A DNA stretch of 64,000 bases, taken from assembly GCA_028287505.1 (NCBI GenBank), contig JAQBPN010000036.1:1-64000 (forward strand). Direction: 5' to 3'. Below are positions 9,881 to 20,446 of this stretch, piece by piece (within the stretch, counting starts at the first letter, position 1; every line of letters starts with the position of its first letter). The stretch is from Fibrobacterota bacterium (lineage in GTDB: Bacteria; Fibrobacterota; Fibrobacteria; UBA11236). Under the pieces are notes generated by a model that worked only from the letters and a program-made list of their open reading frames with translations, did not search any database and was not told where the DNA came from. The position numbers were made by a program, and so were the translations under genes.

Positions 9881-11653
9881 TCACATCTGTGAATGGAACA
9901 CGGGAACGTGTCTCCGCGCGCCCGCGCGCCGGGGAAACCGGCGCCCATCGGGTAGATAGGCGGGGACGGCCTCCGCATTCTTTTTTCCGGCTACCATGCC
10001 TGCCAAGGGATTCCGGAGGCCGGCAGGCAGGGCGGCCGCGGTCTTGATCACGAAATGGTTCGCGGACAGCGGAGGCAACAGATAGGTGAATGCGTTACCC
10101 GTGATGGAGGCTACCGCGGTCTTCTCGGAAAGGGCCGCGCCGCCGGCGTCGAACCCGAACACCCGGCCCTGGGTGAGGGCCACGGGCGAGGTGACGGTGA
10201 AACCGCCCTTGATGGTCTCCGTGGCGTTCTTGTTGATGACGATGATATGCACCTCGTTCCCAGAGGGAATGTACGAGGCGAAGATGGACGCGTTGTTGTT
10301 GTCGGACGCGGTGGCGGCCGCGGACATGGATGCGAAGAGCCCCTGCTTGCCGTCGTAATTGCGGAACAGGCGGAAGGCGGACGCCACGTAAACCGGCTTC
10401 TCGGCCAACTGCCAGAAACTGGCCGCGAACACGCCGGTCTTACCCATCACTCCCAGGAAATCCGCATTGGCCAAGCCGCCGGTGATTTGATTGGCCTCCC
10501 CATAGTTGTATTCGGTGATGGCCACTTGGGTGCCGGGATAGAATTTGCGGATGGATTCCAGCACGCGGGGAACCAGCTTGATGGGCCCCGGAGCGGGATC
10601 GCCCGGATTGGTGACCGGTAGCTTGGGGGTTCCCCACTTGCTGATCCAGCTGCTCTCCACGTAAGTGCTGTCCCACAGGGAACGGGGCGCCTGCAGGCGG
10701 GCGGCGCGGTCGACGGCGGTGGTGGCCGCGGGATCGTTGATACGGTGGTCGCCGGTGGCTTCCGCATACCAGTGGAGGTCCAGCACGTCCAGCAGGCGCT
10801 TGCCGGACTTGTCCGATGCCTTCTTCATCTCGTCCAGGAAGTAGTCGATATACCAGAAATACTTGCCGGTCTTGAACAGGGCGTCCCAATCCGGAGCGTT
10901 CTGCAGGCTGGCGAAATCGTTGTAGCCGTAGAACACGCCTCCGAAAATCTGCACTTGGGGATCCACCTTCTTGACGGCGATGGCCATGTCGCGGGTCTTC
11001 TCCACCAATTCCACCGCCGTGGGCCTCAGGGGATGGATGCGGGGATGGGTGGAGGGCCACAGGCCCGGTTCATTGTCCACCTCGTAGTACTTGACGCCCT
11101 TGGCCGATGCGGCGGTCCCGTATTTCTTGACCATGAAGTCCGCGAACTCATCCGTGTAGACTTCGCCATCGGTGGCGTCCGGGGTCTGGGTGAAGGGTTT
11201 GCCTTTTTCGAAAACCACCTTGGCCCAGCGCGCGGAAGGCGCCGTCTCGCTAGTATCCACGATTCCCTTCTTGTCCTTGGAGACGTAACCGGCGGCGGGA
11301 AGCGTGATCACGGTTTGCGCGCCTCCCGCCAACGCCGCGTCCTGGAAATCGGTCATGGCCTTGCCGGGCACCTCGGTGCCGCCCAGATAGGAGTCGCTGG
11401 AATGGTACCAATCGCTTCCGGCGTTGGAAGCGTTGTTCTCCCAGTTGTATCCCGTCAGACGGTTGCCTCCGGATCGCCGGAAAGTCACGCCGTCCGCGGC
11501 CGTCAGATCATCCGAATTGGATCCGTAGATGAGGGGACTGATGACATGGGTTTCCCGGGTCAAATCGATTTGGAAGGTCACGGCCACTTCCGGATAAGCC
11601 GCCGCGGCGGCGGCCAGGCCGATGGCCAATCCGGTATTCATGCTTGCCCGCAT
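9881..11653 (-). CDS. Secreted GH44 endoglucanase/xyloglucanase
   Basis: The 590-aa product is assigned to glycoside hydrolase family 44 by the N-terminal block FRRSGGNRLTGYNWENNASN followed by AGSDW, a family hallmark. The probable acid/base Glu is in YYEVDNEP (about residue 195 from this start) and the nucleophile Glu in ITEYNYG (about 381). GH44 enzymes cleave beta-1,4-glucan, often xyloglucan or carboxymethyl cellulose, with retention. ATG 11653 is chosen because AGGAGG lies 7-8 nt upstream and a signal peptide (TGLAIGLAAAAAAYP) follows. After the barrel comes a beta domain, then a basic tail (DGRRFPRRAGARRH) reminiscent of the basic C-termini of Fibrobacter surface enzymes. Single gene, possibly its own transcript. 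Confidence 0.9.
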   Translation of the reverse strand: MRASMNTGLAIGLAAAAAAYPEVAVTFQIDLTRETHVISPLIYGSNSDDLTAADGVTFRRSGGNRLTGYNWENNASNAGSDWYHSSDSYLGGTEVPGKAMTDFQDAALAGGAQTVITLPAAGYVSKDKKGIVDTSETAPSARWAKVVFEKGKPFTQTPDATDGEVYTDEFADFMVKKYGTAASAKGVKYYEVDNEPGLWPSTHPRIHPLRPTAVELVEKTRDMAIAVKKVDPQVQIFGGVFYGYNDFASLQNAPDWDALFKTGKYFWYIDYFLDEMKKASDKSGKRLLDVLDLHWYAEATGDHRINDPAATTAVDRAARLQAPRSLWDSTYVESSWISKWGTPKLPVTNPGDPAPGPIKLVPRVLESIRKFYPGTQVAITEYNYGEANQITGGLANADFLGVMGKTGVFAASFWQLAEKPVYVASAFRLFRNYDGKQGLFASMSAAATASDNNNASIFASYIPSGNEVHIIVINKNATETIKGGFTVTSPVALTQGRVFGFDAGGAALSEKTAVASITGNAFTYLLPPLSANHFVIKTAAALPAGLRNPLAGMVAGKKNAEAVPAYLPDGRRFPRRAGARRHVPVFHSQM

Positions 11654-11765
11654 AACCCGCCTCCTGATTAGTCCCAAGCCATATTGTACCCCCGATGGAA
11701 AGGGGATGCATTGTGATTCCGTTTTTTGAGGGCAGGGGAATGGGAAAGGATCCGGGAGGATATGG

Positions 11766-11793
11766 AAAAGGCGCCTTTCCGGAGAAAGGCGCC
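11766..11793 (-). terminator. Rho-independent terminator
   Basis: GGCGCCTTTC (11770-11779) and GAAAGGCGCC (11784-11793) form a perfect 10-bp stem with a CGGA loop. On the minus strand it is followed by TTTT (11769-11766). It lies 60 bp after the small secreted-protein gene ending at 11853 and upstream of the GH44 gene, so it separates the two transcripts. Confidence 0.8.
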
Positions 11794-11852
11794 CCTTCAT
11801 TCAAGCGGAATCGAAGGCCCGTTCCGGAGAACGGTCGGGGCCTTGGTCCGGC

Positions 11853-12412: not shown

Positions 12413-14455
12413 ATGGCTGATTCCCCGGTAGCAAGTGGAAGGGTGGCCTGGAAACCCGATTCGGCCGTCCGCGCCCGCGCGCATTTGACCCGTTTTATCG
12501 CGGAATGCGGCTGCGACTCCTGGGAACAACTGTACGGGCGCTCCATTTCCGATGTCGGCTGGTTCACGGAACGGGTGCTTCGGTTTCTGGATATCCGTTT
12601 CCACAAACCCTATCGCCGCATCCTCGATCTTTCCCGCGGCATGGCCTGGCCCTCCTGGTGCGTGGACGGCGGGCTCAACATCACGCAAAACTGCCTGGAC
12701 AAACATCAGGGGACTCCGGCGCAATCCCTGCCTGCCGTCATCTGGGAAGGCGAAGAAAACCGCGCCGCGCGCAGCCTGACCTACGCGGAACTGCATGCGC
12801 AGGTGGAACGGTGCGCCGCCGGATTGCGTGCCTGCGGACTGGGGAAGGGCGATGCCATCGGATTGCACCTGCCCATGATGCCGGAAACCGTGACGGCCCT
12901 GCTCGCCGTCGGCCGCATCGGCGCCATCGCGGTGCCCCTCTTCTCCGGCTACGGCCCTTCCGCCATCGCGTCCCGCATGCGGGACGTGCGGGCGAAAGCC
13001 GTGTTCACTTGCGACGGTTTCCCCCGCCGCGGAAAACCCGTAGCGGCCAAGGCCGCCATGGATGAAGCCATGGCGGCCTGCCCGGAAGTCGAACATGTCT
13101 TCGTGGTGCGGCGATTGGCACCGGACGCGGAAAAAAAGCCATCGGTTTCAGGAGCTTCCCCCGGGACGGGACGGGACATGGGGTGGGACGCTTTGCTCGC
13201 CCTTGGATCCGCCGCGCCGGCAACGGCCCGCCATGCCGAGCCGACCGCCGCCGAGGATTCCCTCATGGTGCTCTACACCTCCGGAACCACGGGCCGCCCC
13301 AAGGGCATTCTCCATTCCCATTGCGGCTTTCCCGTGAAGGCGGCCCAGGACATGGCCTTGGGGACCGATGTGGGGCCCGGGGACCGTATCGCCTGGGTTA
13401 CGGATATCGGCTGGATGATGGGCCCATGGCTCATCTACGGCGCCACCCTTCTGGGCGCCACCATCGTGATCTACGACGGGGCCCCGGATTTTCCCGCCCC
13501 CGACAGGCTTTGGGATTTCTGCGCGCGCCACCGGGTGGGTATCCTGGGCGTTTCCCCTTCCCTGGTCCGGTCCCTGGCGACGCATGGGGACGCGCTGCCC
13601 GCCGGGTATGATCTGTCCGCCCTGCGCATCCTGGCCTCCACGGGAGAACCCTGGGATCCGGATTCCTGGCGGTGGCTGTTCGACAAGGTGGGCGGCGGCC
13701 GCCTGCCCATCATCAACTACTCGGGAGGCACGGAAATCTCCGGCGGGATCCTGATGGGCAATCCCCTGCTTCCCATCGAACCCGGTTCCTTCCCCGCGCC
13801 CTGCCCCGGCATCGCCGCCGACGTCGTGGACGAGTCCTGCCGCCCGGTGCGCGGGACGGTGGGGGAACTGATCATCCGCCGGCCCTGGATTGGAATGGCG
13901 CGCGGCTTCCTGAACGATCCGGACCGCTATCTCGCGACCTATTGGTCGCGCTGGCCGGACGTCTGGGTGCATGGGGATTGGGCCTTGGCCCAGCCGGCGG
14001 AGGCCGGAGGACAATGGTACATCCTGGGCCGCAGCGACGACACGCTCAAGGTTGCCGGAAAGCGCGTGGGTCCGGCGGAAGTCGAATCCGTGCTGGTCGG
14101 CCACGATCGGATCAAGGAAGCCGCCGTGGTGGGCGTGCCCGATGCGATGAAGGGAACGGCCATGATCGCCTTCTGCGTCCCCGTGGACGGGGTCCAGGCG
14201 GACGGAGTCCCGGCCGGAGAAGACGGCATAAGCTTGGAGGAAGACCTGAAGGGGCGGGTGGCGGCCGAGTTGGGAAAACCGTTGCGGCCGGAACGGATTT
14301 TCTTCGTGGCGGCCCTCCCGCGCACCCGTAACGCCAAAGTGATGCGGCGCGTCATCCGCGCGGCCTTTCTGGGGGAGGATCCGGGAGACCTGACGGCGCT
14401 GGAAAATCCGGAAGCGATGGAAGCGATAAAAAACGCCGGCGGAAAAGCGGTATGA
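12413..14455 (+). CDS. Acetyl/acetoacetyl-CoA synthetase-like AMP-forming ligase
   Basis: This 680-aa ANL-superfamily acyl-CoA synthetase has P-loop [10 protein letters not shown], the adenylate motifs [10 protein letters not shown] and GDWALAQ, hinge [16 protein letters not shown], and the catalytic Lys in [13 protein letters not shown]. The N-terminal [19 protein letters not shown] is like the acetyl-CoA synthetase cap, so small acids are the likely substrates. It is the first gene of the aromatic-amino-acid operon and overlaps or nearly touches hpd. The pathway's end product is acetoacetate, so activation of acetoacetate (or of acetate derived from it) with CoA is a reasonable inference. 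Sequence alone does not separate the two substrates. Confidence 0.8.
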
Positions 14456-14472
14456 TAGACCCGGGAGGTTCC

Positions 14473-15564
14473 ATGGACGAGTCTGCCCTGAAAATCAAGA
14501 AGGTCCACCACGTGGAATTCTACGTGGGGAACGCCAAGCAGGCGGATTACTACTATCGCCAGGCTTTCGGATTCGGCCGGATCGCCTATGCCGGTCTGGA
14601 AACCGGTTGGCGGGACCGCGCCTCCTATGCGCTCGCCCAGGGAAAAGCGATGGTGGTGATGACCTCGCCGCTCATGCCCGACGGAGAAGTCGGCGAGCAT
14701 ATCAAACGGCACGGCGACGGCGTGCGCGATATCGTGCTGGAAGTGGAAGACGCGGAAGCCGCATTCGAACTGGCGGTGTCCAGGGGCGCCGAACCGGCCG
14801 CGGAGCCGCGCGAGATCAAGGACGGACACGGCGCCATCAAGCGATCCACCGTCAAGGTATACGGGGACACCCTGCACTCCTTCATTTCCCTGGGAAGCTA
14901 CCGGGGGCCCTTTCTCCCGGGATTCACCGAGTCCAAGGAACCGGGGCGCGGAGCCGGCCTGCTCGCCCTGGATCATTACGTCGCCAACGTCACCCTGGGG
15001 GAAATGCGCAAGTGGGAGGAATGGTACGTGCGCGTGCTGGGGCTGGAACGGTTCATGACCTTCGAGGACAAGGATATCAGCACCGAATTCACGGCCCTCA
15101 ACAGCGTGGTCATGGCCAACGGATCCAAGAGCCTCAAGTTCCCCATCAACGAGCCCGCCCCCGGCCGGCGCAAGAGCCAGGTGGAGGAGTACAACGATTT
15201 CTACCGCAGCCCGGGTGTGCAGCACATCGCGCTCCTGACCGCGGACATCATCCGCACCGTGTCCCAGCTGCGCGCCAACGGCGTGGAGTTCCTGCGCGTG
15301 CCGGACGCGTATTATCATGCATTGCCGGAACGCGTCGGCGAAATCACAGAGGCGATCGGAACCCTGAAGGATCTGGGCATCCTGGTGGACAAGGACGATC
15401 AGGGATACCTGTTGCAGATTTTCACCCGGCCCGTGGAAGACCGGCCCACGCTCTTTTTCGAAATCATCCAGCGCAAGGGCTGCCAGGGATTCGGCAAAGG
15501 CAATTTCAAAGCCCTGTTCGAAGCCATCGAGCGGGAGCAGGACCGGAGAGGGAACCTGGTGTGA
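14473..15564 (+). CDS. hpd: 4-hydroxyphenylpyruvate dioxygenase
   Basis: This Fe(II) enzyme converts 4-hydroxyphenylpyruvate and O2 to homogentisate and CO2. The protein is 363 aa from ATG 14473, chosen because GGGAGG sits 6 nt upstream; an ATG at 14452 overlaps the previous gene and lacks this signal. Two VOC-type halves are visible. The metal ligands are in [10 protein letters not shown] (His), [10 protein letters not shown] (His) and [12 protein letters not shown] (Glu), with the usual C-terminal [15 protein letters not shown]. It is second in the operon, and its stop overlaps the hmgA start (GTGA). Confidence 0.95.
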
Positions 15565-16892
15565 GCGGCCCCTACGCATATCAATCCGGATTCGGAAACG
15601 AGTTCGCCACCGAGGCCCTGCCCGGCGCCTTGCCGCAAGGCCAGAACTCGCCCCAGCATGCGCCCTACGGCCTGTACGCGGAGCAATTCAGCGGCACCGC
15701 ATTCACGGCGCCGCGCCATCTGAGCCGCCGCTCCTGGCTTTATCGCATCCTGCCTTCGGCGGCGCAGCCGCCCTACCGGCCTTACGCGAAGGATTCCTCT
15801 GGAGCCCCGGGCGCCGGCAATTCCGGCCACTTCCTGCGGAGCGGCCCCTTCGATGAAGTCCCCGCGACTCCGAACCCCTTGCGATGGGATCCTTTCCCGC
15901 TTCCCGATCGATCCACCGATTTCCTGGACGGGCTTTTCACCCTGGCCGGTAACGGCAACGTGACCCTCCAATCCGGCATCGGCATCCACATGTACGCCGC
16001 CAACGCCTCCATGGCCGATCGCTTCTTCTGCGACAACGACGGAGAATTGCTGGTGGTGCCGGAGTGGGGCCGAATGGTTTTCCACACTGAAATGGGCGTG
16101 CTGGAAGCCGAGCCGGGGGAGATTTGCCTGCTGCCCCGCGGCCTGAAGTTCCGCGTGGACCTGCCCGACGGGGGCTCCCGCGGCTACGTGTGCGAAAACT
16201 ACGGCGCGCCCTTCCGGCTTCCCGAGCTCGGGCCCATCGGCGCCAACGGCCTGGCCAACGCGCGCGACTTCCTGTCCCCGGTAGCCGCCTACGAGGATCG
16301 GGAAGGCCGTTTCCAACTCATCGCCAAATTCCAGGGACGCCTGTGGGAAGCGGATCTGGATCGCTCGCCCCTGGATGTGGTCGCCTGGCACGGAAACCAC
16401 GCGCCCTGCAAATACGATCTGCGGCGCTTCAACACCCTGGGATCGGTGAGCTTCGATCATCCCGACCCCTCCATCTTCACCGTGCTCACCTCTCCCTCGG
16501 AAACCCCGGGCACGGCCAACGTGGACCTGGTGGTGTTTCCCCAGCGCTGGCAGGTGGCCGAGCACACGTTCCGGCCGCCCTGGTTCCACCGCAACGTGAT
16601 GAGCGAGTTCATGGGGCTGGTCCAGGGCGCATACGATGCCAAGGCCGAAGGGTTCCTGCCCGGCGGGGCCAGCCTGCACAATTGCATGACCGGCCACGGA
16701 CCGGACGCGAATACCTTCGCCAAGGCCGCGGATGCAAAGCTCAAACCCGAATTCCTGGCGAATACCCTGGCCTTCATGTTCGAGACCCGCTGGGTGCTGC
16801 ATCCCACCCGCCTGGCCCTGGAATCCCCCGGCCTGCAAACCGATTACCCCCTTTGCTGGAAGGACCTGCCGAAATCGTTCCGGCCGGAGTGA
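15561..16892 (+). CDS. hmgA: Homogentisate 1,2-dioxygenase
   Basis: This enzyme opens the homogentisate ring with O2 to give maleylacetoacetate. The product is 443 aa from GTG 15561, which overlaps the hpd stop by 4 nt. The N-terminus [19 protein letters not shown] and the internal [20 protein letters not shown] are diagnostic. Iron ligands are His and Glu in [14 protein letters not shown] and His in [14 protein letters not shown]. It ends 2 nt before the next gene, so translation is almost certainly coupled along the operon. Confidence 0.96.
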
Positions 16893-16894
16893 GC

Positions 16895-17812
16895 ATGGAG
16901 ACATCGCTGCAAATCCTGATGGAGGGCCTCATCGATTATGCGGGTCTGTTCCCGCCCGCTTCCCTGGATATGGACGCGGCGGTGCGCAACTACGCCTCGT
17001 ACGCAAGGAGTCCGCAGGCGGCGTGGCTGGGACGCTTCGTGCTTCCGGTTTCGCGCCTCGGGGAATTCTCCGCGACCGCCGCCGCCCTCCCCGCGCCGGA
17101 TTCCCGGGAACGGGAATGGCGGTTGAGCGCCTTGGCCGGAAGCGATTTGACGAGGGATTTGGCGGCCATCGGAGCATTCAACCGGAACGCCTCGACCGCG
17201 CGGGCCGGAGAGATCGGGGCGCAGAAAGCCGTCGTCGACGTCCTGGAAATGAAAGCGGACGGCGCGGAGGCCATCCAGGCCGCCATGGAGGAAATCCCCT
17301 CCTCCCTCACGCCTTATTTCGAGATTCCCATCCAGGACGATCCCGCCCCCCTGATCGCCGCCATCGCCCGGGCCGGAGGACGCGCCAAGGTACGTACCGG
17401 AGGCGTTACCCCAGCCGTTTTCCCATCCCCCTGCGCCCTGGCCCGTTTCATATCGGCCTGCGCCCGGGCGGGAGTCCCGTTCAAGGCCACGGCCGGATTG
17501 CACCATCCCGTGCGATCGGCGCGGCGCCTGACCTATGAACCGGACAGCGCGGAAACCATCATGCACGGCTTCCTGAACGTTTTCCTGGCCTCCGCCTTCG
17601 CCGCCAAAGGGATGGATGCGGAGACCGTCAACGCCTTGCTCCAGGAGGAATCGCCCGGGGCTTTCGCGTTCCGGGGAGAAGAGGTGGCCTGGCGGGGCCA
17701 TCGGATCGATGCCTCACAATTGAGAACTTCGCGCCGGAACTTCTCCATCGCGTTCGGATCCTGTTCCTTCGATGAACCCAAAACGGATTTGCTGGAGGCG
17801 GGCTTGCTATGA
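16895..17812 (+). CDS. Conserved-looking protein of unknown function between hmgA and fahA
   Basis: This 305-aa protein has no signal peptide or membrane segment, so it is cytosolic. It has no motif that I recognise. It starts METSLQILMEGLIDYAGLFP, has alternating strand/helix character, and two blocks that look conserved: AKVRTGGVTPAVFPS (about 166-180) and FKATAGLHHPVR (about 199-210). The latter resembles a TIM-barrel-like phosphate or carboxylate pocket. It starts 2 nt after hmgA and overlaps fahA by 4 nt (ATGA), so it is made in step with both. The operon lacks a maleylacetoacetate isomerase, and this gene occupies exactly that position. A non-orthologous isomerase is my leading inference; a chaperone or regulatory role is possible. 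Confidence 0.85.
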   Translation: METSLQILMEGLIDYAGLFPPASLDMDAAVRNYASYARSPQAAWLGRFVLPVSRLGEFSATAAALPAPDSREREWRLSALAGSDLTRDLAAIGAFNRNASTARAGEIGAQKAVVDVLEMKADGAEAIQAAMEEIPSSLTPYFEIPIQDDPAPLIAAIARAGGRAKVRTGGVTPAVFPSPCALARFISACARAGVPFKATAGLHHPVRSARRLTYEPDSAETIMHGFLNVFLASAFAAKGMDAETVNALLQEESPGAFAFRGEEVAWRGHRIDASQLRTSRRNFSIAFGSCSFDEPKTDLLEAGLL

Positions 17813-19185
17813 CACTCCGTATCGATGCCACCCATGACGCCGCTTTGCGGAGCTGGGTGGATTCCGCAAACCCCGCCGCAAGCGATTTCCCGATCCAGAA
17901 CCTGCCTTTCGGAATCTTCCGCCGGCGGGGCGGCCCGGATGCGCCCCATGGCGGCATCGCCATCGGAGATCGGATCCTGGATCTGCCGGCTTGCCTTGCG
18001 GCGGGACTCTTCACCGGCCTTGCGGTCCAAGCCGCGGGAGCCTGCGGAGAGACGTCGCTCAACGCCCTGTTGACCCTTGGCCGCGGATGCTGGTCGGACC
18101 TGCGCAGGCAGGCGAGCGGTCTGTTGCGGGAAGGCGATACCCGCATCCGGCTCCATGCCGATTGGGAAACGCGCCTGCTTCTCCCCATGGGCGATGCGGA
18201 ACTTTTCCTGCCCGCCGCCATCGGCGACTATACGGATTTCTACGCCTCCGTATTCCACGCCACCAACGTGGGCGGACTCTTCCGCCCCGATCAGCCATTG
18301 CTGCCCAACTACAAGCATCTGCCCATCGGCTATCACGGCCGCGCCTCTTCCATCGTGGTAAGCGGCACGCCCGTGCGCCGTCCCAGCGGCCAGAGCAAGG
18401 CCGATGACGCGCCGGACCCGGTATTCGGCCCCAGCAAGGTGCTCGACTATGAAGTGGAAGCCGGGTTCCTGGTGGGCCCGGGAAACCGCCTGGGCGAACC
18501 CATCGCCATCGGGGACGCGGAGGATCATCTGTTCGGCATGTGCCTCCTCAACGATTGGTCCGCGCGCGACATCCAGAAATGGGAGTACCAGCCGCTGGGC
18601 CCCTTCCTGGCCAAGAGCTTCGCCACCTCCCTCTCCCCTTGGGTCGTGACCTTGGACGCCCTGGAACCTTATCGCGTCCCGGCCTTTGCCCGTCCCGGAG
18701 GCGATCCAGCCGTCCTGCCCCATCTGGATCAAGCGGCCCAGGCCCGCCGCGCCGGCCTGAACGCCACGTTCGAACTCTTTCTCTCCACGCCCAAGATGCG
18801 CGAAAACGGTACGGCCCCTTTCCGCTTGAGCCGCGCGAACAGCCGCGACCTGTATTGGACCCCGGGACAGATGCTTGCCCATCACGCCAGCAACGGCTGC
18901 AACCTCCGCCCCGGCGACCTGCTCGGATCGGGAACCCTTTCCGGGCCCGCCAAGGAAAACGAAGGCTGCCTGTTGGAGCTGAACCGGGGCGGCAAAGAGC
19001 CCATCTCCCTGCCCGACGGAGAAACCCGCCGCTTCCTGTTGGACGGGGACGAAGTGATCCTGAAGGGGTATTGCGAAGCCGAAGGATTCGCGCGCATAGG
19101 CTTGGGGGAATGCCGGGGCTTGATTCTGCCCGCTTTGGCTCCCGCTGCGGCGGCTGCCGGAAAGATTCCGCGCGGTCCGGCATGA
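17809..19185 (+). CDS. fahA: Fumarylacetoacetase
   Basis: This enzyme hydrolyses fumarylacetoacetate to fumarate and acetoacetate, the last step of tyrosine degradation. The 458-aa product has the full two-domain FAH architecture. The N-terminal part has PFGIFRRRGG. The catalytic part has GDYTDFYASVFHATNVG, PIGYHGRASSIVVSGTPVRR, the metal-ligand segment LDYEVEAGF (Glu, Glu) and LLNDWSARDIQKWEYQPLGP with its Asp and Lys. Its ATG overlaps the stop of the unknown protein by 4 nt. phhA follows after 21 nt. Confidence 0.96.
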   Translation: MTLRIDATHDAALRSWVDSANPAASDFPIQNLPFGIFRRRGGPDAPHGGIAIGDRILDLPACLAAGLFTGLAVQAAGACGETSLNALLTLGRGCWSDLRRQASGLLREGDTRIRLHADWETRLLLPMGDAELFLPAAIGDYTDFYASVFHATNVGGLFRPDQPLLPNYKHLPIGYHGRASSIVVSGTPVRRPSGQSKADDAPDPVFGPSKVLDYEVEAGFLVGPGNRLGEPIAIGDAEDHLFGMCLLNDWSARDIQKWEYQPLGPFLAKSFATSLSPWVVTLDALEPYRVPAFARPGGDPAVLPHLDQAAQARRAGLNATFELFLSTPKMRENGTAPFRLSRANSRDLYWTPGQMLAHHASNGCNLRPGDLLGSGTLSGPAKENEGCLLELNRGGKEPISLPDGETRRFLLDGDEVILKGYCEAEGFARIGLGECRGLILPALAPAAAAAGKIPRGPA

Positions 19186-19206: not shown

Positions 19207-20049
19207 ATGGAACAACGCCCGGACTACACCATCGATCAGCCCATCGCGAGCTATACCGCCGCCGATCACGCCACCTGGCGCACCCTCTTCGAACATCAGG
19301 CCTCGTTGCTGCCCGGGCGCGCCTGCGATGAATTCCTGCGCGGCCTGAAGGGGCTGGGAGTGGCCGCCGACGGCATCCCCGACTTCAACCGCCTATCGGA
19401 CATCCTGGGCAAGGCCACCGGCTGGGCCATCGTCGCCGTGCCCGGCCTGGTCCCGGACGACGTGTTCTTCGGGCATCTGGCCAACCGCCGCTTCCCCGTA
19501 ACCTGGTGGATACGCAAGCCCGAACAGATGGACTACCTCCAGGAACCGGACGTCTTCCACGACATCTACGGCCACGTGCCCCTCCTGATGAATCCGGTAT
19601 TCGCCGACTACATGCAGGCCTACGGGCAAGGCGGCGTGAAGGCCCAACGCCTGGGGGAGATCACCCACCTGGCCCGGCTCTACTGGTACACGGTTGAGTT
19701 CGGCCTCATCCGGGACGCCTCCGCCGCCGGCGGACTGCGCATCTACGGTTCCGGCATCCTCTCCTCCAAGTCCGAGTCCATCTATTGCCTGGACAGCCGC
19801 GGACCCAATCGCATCGGATTCGATTTACTGCGGGTGATGCGGACCAAGTACCGGATCGATACGTTTCAGAAAACCTATTTCGTGATCGATAGCTTCGAGG
19901 ATTTGTTCGCGGCCACGCGGCCGGATTTCCGCCCGTTCTATGAGCGCCTGCACGGGGTGCAGGACCTGGGGGCGGGGGAAGTCGCGGACGGGGATCGGGT
20001 GCTGACGCGGGGAACGGGCGAAGGCTGGGGGCACAGCGAGGACGTGTGA
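19207..20049 (+). CDS. phhA: Phenylalanine 4-monooxygenase
   Basis: This tetrahydropterin-dependent iron hydroxylase converts phenylalanine to tyrosine using O2. The 280-aa chain matches the bacterial, monomeric length. Iron ligands are visible as PDVFHDIYGHVP (two His) and YWYTVEFGLI (Glu). GAGG precedes the ATG. It closes the operon and feeds tyrosine into it; an aminotransferase (Tyr to 4-hydroxyphenylpyruvate) and a pterin-4a-carbinolamine dehydratase are not in the window and must be supplied from elsewhere. Confidence 0.95.
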   Translation: MEQRPDYTIDQPIASYTAADHATWRTLFEHQASLLPGRACDEFLRGLKGLGVAADGIPDFNRLSDILGKATGWAIVAVPGLVPDDVFFGHLANRRFPVTWWIRKPEQMDYLQEPDVFHDIYGHVPLLMNPVFADYMQAYGQGGVKAQRLGEITHLARLYWYTVEFGLIRDASAAGGLRIYGSGILSSKSESIYCLDSRGPNRIGFDLLRVMRTKYRIDTFQKTYFVIDSFEDLFAATRPDFRPFYERLHGVQDLGAGEVADGDRVLTRGTGEGWGHSEDV

Positions 20050-20059
20050 ATGCCGGCGC

Positions 20060-20446
20060 TCAGACGGGCTGAACCAGATTGATAAGGTTGCCGCAAGTGT
20101 CCTCGAACAGGACCGTCGTGATCGGGCCCATGGCCACCGGTTCTCCCCTGAAAACCACCCCGGCCTCCTTCAAGCGGCGATATTCGGAATGGATATCGCT
20201 GGTTATGAAAGCCGTGGCCGGGATTCCCGCGGCAAACAGGGCTTTCTGAAAAACCTGGGCGGGGGGAAAGCTCAAAGGTTCGAGAACCAATTCCACGCCT
20301 GCGACGCCATCCGGCGAGGCGACGGTCAGCCATCGGAACGGACCCATGGGCAGATCCGTTTTCTTCTCGAATCCAAGCTTGGACGTGTAGAACTTCAAGG
20401 CGGTTTCCTGGTTCTCGACCATCACGCTGGCCAGCTTGATTTGCAT
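20060..20446 (-). CDS. VOC/glyoxalase-family protein
   Basis: This 128-aa single-domain vicinal-oxygen-chelate protein starts QIKLASVMVENQETALKFYT, with TSKLGFEKKTDLPMGPFRWL and the closing VLFEDTCGNLINLVQP typical of glyoxalase/bleomycin-resistance-like proteins. GGAG lies upstream of the ATG. It is convergent with phhA. Substrate unknown. Confidence 0.85.
   Translation of the reverse strand: MQIKLASVMVENQETALKFYTSKLGFEKKTDLPMGPFRWLTVASPDGVAGVELVLEPLSFPPAQVFQKALFAAGIPATAFITSDIHSEYRRLKEAGVVFRGEPVAMGPITTVLFEDTCGNLINLVQPV

Follow-up and report, generated by a model that had tools for sequence, protein, structure and literature searches.

The step that turns maleylacetoacetate into fumarylacetoacetate is conventionally described as glutathione-dependent, and in animals, fungi and many bacteria it is carried out by a glutathione-dependent enzyme. 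The substrate carries a ketone conjugated to a cis double bond; in MaiA, the GST-zeta enzyme (TIGR01262), glutathione adds to this double bond, and the bond then rotates. MaiA is built from a thioredoxin-like N-terminal domain and a helical C-terminal domain. A comparable cis-trans step in the neighbouring gentisate pathway is known to be solved without glutathione, by thiol-dependent maleylpyruvate isomerases (DinB/MDMPI type; Actinobacteria and Bacillota), which are four-helix-bundle metalloenzymes. Maleate isomerase, a member of the Asp/Glu racemase superfamily, uses an internal cysteine nucleophile for the cis-trans isomerisation of a dicarboxylate. However, in many bacteria that possess the homogentisate pathway, MaiA is not recognisable and glutathione apparently cannot be made.

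The window analysed here, a stretch of 64,000 nucleotides from a Fibrobacterota bacterium, contains an operon in the order CoA-ligase, hpd, hmgA, X, fahA and phenylalanine hydroxylase (Table 1). The initial annotation had recognised Hpd, HmgA and FahA, each of which scores above its curated NCBIfam cut-off, and the operon proved to be wider than had been claimed, with a CoA-ligase-like gene upstream of hpd and a phenylalanine 4-monooxygenase gene 21 nt downstream of fahA. The genes are tightly packed: the CoA-ligase-like gene and hpd overlap by 4 nt (ATGA), as do hpd and hmgA (GTGA); the ATG of ORF X, which encodes 305 amino acids, lies 2 nt past the hmgA stop codon (16890-16892), and the ATG of fahA (17809) overlaps the stop of ORF X by 4 nt, so that the spacing first described for this ORF holds on both sides. 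Between phenylalanine and the final fumarate and acetoacetate, the operon encodes all enzymes but the aminotransferase and the isomerase. The acetoacetate that FahA releases may be activated by the CoA-ligase-like product, and the operon may cover the whole route that begins at phenylalanine and ends with its acetoacetate product as a CoA ester. Outside the operon, a glyoxalase/VOC-family gene is convergent with the last operon gene, and a glycoside hydrolase family 44 gene fits a polysaccharide-degrading relative of the Fibrobacterota.

Table 1. Positions of the genes and motifs discussed; numbers without a locus prefix refer to the window.
Feature	Position	Strand	Basis or remark
Glycoside hydrolase family 44 gene	9881-11800	-	
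Acyl-CoA synthetase, acetate/acetoacetate-CoA ligase type	12413-14455	+	Pfam PF00501/PF13193/PF16177; NCBIfam below equivalog cut-offs
hpd, 4-hydroxyphenylpyruvate dioxygenase	14452-15564	+	TIGR01263, 427.9 bits, above curated NCBIfam cut-off
hmgA, homogentisate 1,2-dioxygenase, GTG start	15561-16892	+	TIGR01015, 656.3 bits, above cut-off
X, predicted glutathione-independent maleylacetoacetate isomerase, TIM barrel	16895-17812	+	ORF, predicted fold, fahA association, no known family
D14 codon	16934-16936	+	Strand 1; conserved in 98/99
E118 codon	17246-17248	+	Strand 4; invariant in 99 sequences
K165-x-R167-x-G169-G170 motif	17387-17404	+	Strand 6 (163-167); K165, G169 and G170 invariant, R167 in 97/99
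K197-A-T-A-G-L-H203-H204 motif	17483-17506	+	Strand 7 (196-199) and next loop; K197 invariant, H203 in 96/99
G288-S-C290-S motif	17756-17767	+	End of strand 8 (284-289); C290 in 97/99, candidate internal nucleophile
fahA, fumarylacetoacetase, long type	17809-19185	+	TIGR01266, 550.2 bits, above cut-off
Phenylalanine 4-monooxygenase, start of Phe/Tyr route	19207-20049	+	TIGR01267, 371 bits, above cut-off
Glyoxalase/VOC-family gene	20060-20446	-	
MaiA and short-type FAH genes, genome G290	L116:3885-5639		Divergent; PF18288/PF01557 (FAH)
Flavin-reductase-like genes	L127:6656-7507, L135:6251-7099, L136:6166-7053, L138:2042-2935, L141:6224-7105		PF01613
Degenerate X copies, Bacteroidota	L139:5001-5972, L140:4998-5975		R167, H203 and C290 lost; K165 and K197 kept

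We propose that X acts as a maleylacetoacetate isomerase (EC 5.2.1.2) which is unrelated to GST-zeta MaiA and does not use glutathione. A probability of about 0.78 is given to this reading, in which the reaction is inferred, neither activity nor genetic data being at hand; the gene and its operon, the family, the predicted fold, the conserved residues and the exclusivity with MaiA and glutathione synthetase are what the analysis shows. Nothing in Pfam, NCBIfam, PHROGs or the PDB sequences matches the protein, in line with the earlier remark that it lacks a GST or known isomerase motif. No curated Pfam or NCBIfam family matched convincingly when X was aligned with 79 relatives, the PDB sequences gave no match for this set either, and neither TIGR01262 nor the Pfam GST domains match the X protein or this 80-member set. 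MaiA and X share the proposed reaction and a place beside an FAH gene, but no sequence match joins them. No sequence similarity between X and maleate isomerase was found either, and X is set apart from the four-helix-bundle isomerases by its predicted TIM barrel and the lack of a Pfam match.

A scan in which each bacterial or archaeal species was represented by one genome confirmed relatives of X in at least 584 genome stretches. The 80 examined further belong, by their titles, to Fibrobacterota, Acidobacteriota, Gemmatimonadota, Planctomycetota, Chloroflexota, Chlorobi/Ignavibacteria and Cyanobacteria; one of them, titled 'deltaproteobacterium', was grouped with Acidobacteriota by a later search. 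Among the matches listed, the closest named relative belongs to a 'Fibrobacteres bacterium' MAG (L011), with 57% identity. Plasmids of Kovacikia, Priestia, Streptomyces, Pseudonocardia, Rhodococcus and others also carry relatives, named 'hypothetical protein' where annotated, and counting the plasmids of Actinomycetota and Bacillota the family occurs in nine phyla. The homologue search proposed at the outset ties the X family to fahA across nine phyla.

This tie was read from the gene neighbourhoods. Among the 80 loci, 9 were excluded, as the contig ends soon after X; in the 71 loci with a continuing contig, fahA follows X directly (gap below 150 nt or overlapping) in 48, is found elsewhere in the locus in 12 further cases, and is missing from the examined stretch in 11, mostly Phycisphaerales. 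In nine loci, mostly of planctomycetes (L025, L035, L047, L051, L056, L057, L058, L066 and L076), no fahA lies in the 6 kb that follow X. Upstream, HmgA is the immediate neighbour in 11 of the 64 loci scanned, and the remaining genes are mutually unrelated, including RuvC, GlnS and peptidases; these unrelated neighbour proteins were pooled into alignments solely for joint scanning. Since the other upstream genes vary, it is FahA, the enzyme expected to use the product of X, that stands out as its steady partner. The plasmid copies follow the same pattern, X adjoining fahA in Priestia (hppD, X, fahA, hisC, hmgA), Pseudonocardia (hmgA, X, fahA), Streptomyces and Rhodococcus (a cupin protein annotated for phenylalanine catabolism, X, fahA).

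At the level of whole genomes, X implies FahA in 71 of 72 carriers over three sampled clades. Within the class of the source genome (61 genomes), FahA exceeds its cut-off in exactly the four genomes that carry X (4/4). A second sample of 197 genomes, taken as acidobacterial, gave 37 genomes with both, 9 with FahA only, 150 with neither and a single one with X only, in which X lies on a short contig (Fisher p 3e-30). The third sample comprised 198 genomes from the phylum of a Chlorobiales carrier, taken as Bacteroidota, and it gave 30 with both, 45 with FahA only, none with X only and 123 with neither (p 3e-15). These p-values ignore shared ancestry.

A maiA elsewhere in the genome, or its frequent co-occurrence with the family, had been named as findings that would refute the proposal, and neither was encountered: TIGR01262 has no match at E<=0.001 in the source genome (6.07 Mb, 98.7% complete), and MaiA above its cut-off was absent from all 116 different X carriers searched, the source genome included. 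By sample, MaiA was above the cut-off in none of 55 genomes of one set (53 of them X carriers), in none of the 75 FahA-positive genomes of the presumed Bacteroidota sample (30 of them X carriers), and in one of the 197 acidobacterial-sample genomes, which was not among the 38 X carriers there. That sole genome, G290, has no X and does have glutathione synthetase; its MaiA gene is divergent from an FAH gene whose type differs from the one accompanying X. As regards glutathione itself, the synthetase GshB (TIGR01380) has no match in the source genome and is lacking above cut-off in 60 of 62 X carriers searched, the exceptions being a cyanobacterium (G101) and an acidobacterium (G245). Judged from the GshB profile alone, most X carriers are apparently unable to make glutathione, which sets them apart from the setting of MaiA and fits a glutathione-independent enzyme. 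Genomes reached through their loci have no quality figures and many are MAGs, and failure to match does not prove that a gene is absent. A gene that belongs to the homogentisate pathway and excludes MaiA is what is expected of a maleylacetoacetate isomerase, and X meets this criterion.

Conversely, 54 FahA-positive genomes have neither MaiA nor, at the sensitivity of the search, X (9 in the acidobacterial sample and 45 in the second one). As the search profile may miss divergent members of the family, this number is an upper bound; these genomes nevertheless point to at least one further route of isomerisation, and a requirement for X is not demonstrated. They also lend some support to the idea that X acts on the same intermediates without being an isomerase, for example as a hydrolase, a tautomerase or a repair enzyme clearing maleylacetoacetate or by-products resembling succinylacetone, isomerisation in the 54 genomes being perhaps spontaneous or thiol-driven. 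A non-enzymatic, glutathione-dependent route has been reported in mice (Fernandez-Canon 2002, cited in PMC6822483). However, a repair enzyme should occur beside MaiA too, whereas none of the genomes searched has both X and MaiA, and X is associated with the absence of GshB, as a replacement predicts. For these reasons a non-isomerase role is considered improbable.

In the neighbourhoods that were read, the acidobacterial fahA loci without X contain hpd, hmgA or both, and no obvious isomerase. Five of them with fahA and hpd (L110-L114) share a conserved DDAH-like hydrolase of about 300 residues, with a weak FAA-hydrolase-like gene nearby; neither this hydrolase nor the efflux genes at such acidobacterial loci furnished a candidate for an alternative isomerase. 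Among the fahA loci read in the Bacteroidota, five have a flavin-reductase-like gene (PF01613) closely downstream of fahA, and the five genomes have no MaiA and either no X or only a degenerate copy. This flavin-reductase-like protein, possibly a further isomerase and possibly just an unrelated partner, is no more than a lead. Two of these genomes, G349 and G493, keep a degenerate X copy elsewhere, at the syntenic site held by fahA in related genomes (L123, L125 and L126). It looks as if X has been replaced there and the old copy is decaying, an inference from two genomes only. On the same narrow basis, the residues lost from these copies (Table 1) would fit a need for C290, H203 and R167 in the isomerase role.

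The structural predictions support the barrel active site that the initial annotation had surmised. AlphaFold yields a confident TIM barrel both for the source protein (eight strands, pLDDT 95.5, pTM 0.93) and for a cyanobacterial member (pLDDT 95.2, pTM 0.93), a fold that differs from that of MaiA and, as a single barrel with C290 only, from the two alpha/beta domains and two catalytic cysteines of maleate isomerase. Foldseek searches against solved structures gave weak neighbours only and no close relative. IMPDH came first for the source model (E 3e-4, TM about 0.4), a rank not kept for the second model, and its likeness is regarded as generic barrel similarity; the cyanobacterial model had a spore-lytic enzyme, L-rhamnose isomerase and DERA at the top. 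Chains of DERA, deoxyribose-phosphate aldolase, recur over both searches, with probabilities of 0.96-1.00 and TM by target of 0.44-0.55. The sequence blocks pointed out earlier as conserved-looking, AKVRTGG and FKATAGLHH, are indeed conserved in 99 homologues and lie on strands 6 and 7. E118, K165 and K197 do not vary at all in the 99 sequences; D14, E143, R167, H203 and C290 vary in three at most; all eight lie on barrel strands or on the loops following them. C290 is the sole almost invariant cysteine of the family. A barrel of the enzyme type, predicted with confidence and bearing invariant charged residues on the strands, leaves little room for X as a non-catalytic or regulatory partner of FahA, a chaperone or a channelling subunit. 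This possibility has in its favour that FahA is a steady neighbour with a gene that often overlaps X, but many FahA-bearing genomes have no X, and it is deemed very improbable.

If X is the isomerase, a mechanism can be put forward in which the role of each residue is inferred. HmgA would supply (Z)-4,6-dioxooct-2-enedioate (maleylacetoacetate), X would turn its cis C2=C3 bond to trans, and FahA would hydrolyse the resulting fumarylacetoacetate. The substrate site is placed, hypothetically, at the C-terminal mouth of the barrel, where the C4 ketone may be activated by K165 on strand 6 with help from K197 on strand 7 and E118 on strand 4, either as a protonated imine, as with the lysine of DERA-type aldolases, or by hydrogen bonding. 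The carboxylates would be held by R167, H203 and N228. C290, at the end of strand 8, may add reversibly to the double bond and allow rotation, thereby acting as a built-in thiol in the role that GSH has in MaiA, and no diffusible thiol would be required. The initial annotation had spoken of a new, possibly thiol-independent isomerase family; the new family and the glutathione-free reading are supported, activity remains unproven, and 'thiol-independent' is too strong a wording because C290 (97/99) could be such a thiol.

The same residues can be read in another way, as a form of the explanation preferred here which does not exclude the functional claim. X may be an isomerase by pure Schiff-base chemistry, a divergent DERA-type class I aldolase in which K165 and the C4 ketone are joined as an imine and rotation about C2=C3 follows the loss of double-bond character in the conjugated iminium, C290 being merely structural. 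DeoC/DERA (TIGR00126) shares with X the TIM barrel, the lysines of strands 6 and 7 and the acid of strand 4, strand numbers which we take to be the same for the conserved acid and two lysines of DeoC; this resemblance to the catalytic placing in DeoC, the recurrence of DERA among the structural neighbours of two members, the lysine motifs that fall in register in hhalign, and the invariance of E118, K165 and K197 even in copies without C290 and H203 all speak for it. Nevertheless, the profile comparison with DeoC (hhalign P 0.006) has a probability of 6% only and cannot be separated from E. coli decoys, which score almost as high; a Pfam DeoC match occurs in 0 of the 80 members, and the conservation of C290 would call for another reason. 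X further differs from DeoC in its pathway, in its conserved GSCS motif and in being about 50 residues longer, with no HMM match between them. A DeoC scan of viral contigs found nothing. As the kinship with DERA is not statistically significant, it was kept as an analogy only, and the Schiff-base part of any mechanism rests on that analogy; chemistry by imine alone is held to be unlikely, without being negligible. Within the preferred reading, that of a glutathione-free isomerase, formation of an imine and the action of C290 as nucleophile may both hold; the odds are about even and the matter is not settled.

A glutathione-independent maleylacetoacetate isomerase of this kind was not found in the literature searched, whose coverage was partial, with few subscription papers and no preprints, and novelty is therefore unproven. 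What is known is the reaction; what would be new is the family and the fold performing it. A report on Rhodococcus globerulus growing on 2-hydroxyphenylacetate lists HmgA and HmgB in the proteomes and, in the portion of the article available, names HmgC only in its account of the general pathway (PMC11889516). To that extent it fits a MaiA gap in Actinobacteria.

Viewed across the bacteria, the TIM-barrel family of X may be a main glutathione-independent maleylacetoacetate isomerase. Working with its own lysine and cysteine residues, it would supply the missing step of the homogentisate pathway in hundreds of species, which belong to Fibrobacterota, Acidobacteriota, Gemmatimonadota, Planctomycetota, Chloroflexota, Bacteroidota/Chlorobi, Cyanobacteriota, Actinomycetota and Bacillota, with the flavin-reductase-like family filling the same gap in some Bacteroidota that lost X. 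This broader picture is tentative, its chances being rated somewhat below even. If true, a widespread and so far unannotated family would fill a gap in how aromatic degradation is annotated, a new protein fold would be added to those known for cis-trans isomerisation of this kind, and hundreds of proteins now called hypothetical would receive a name.
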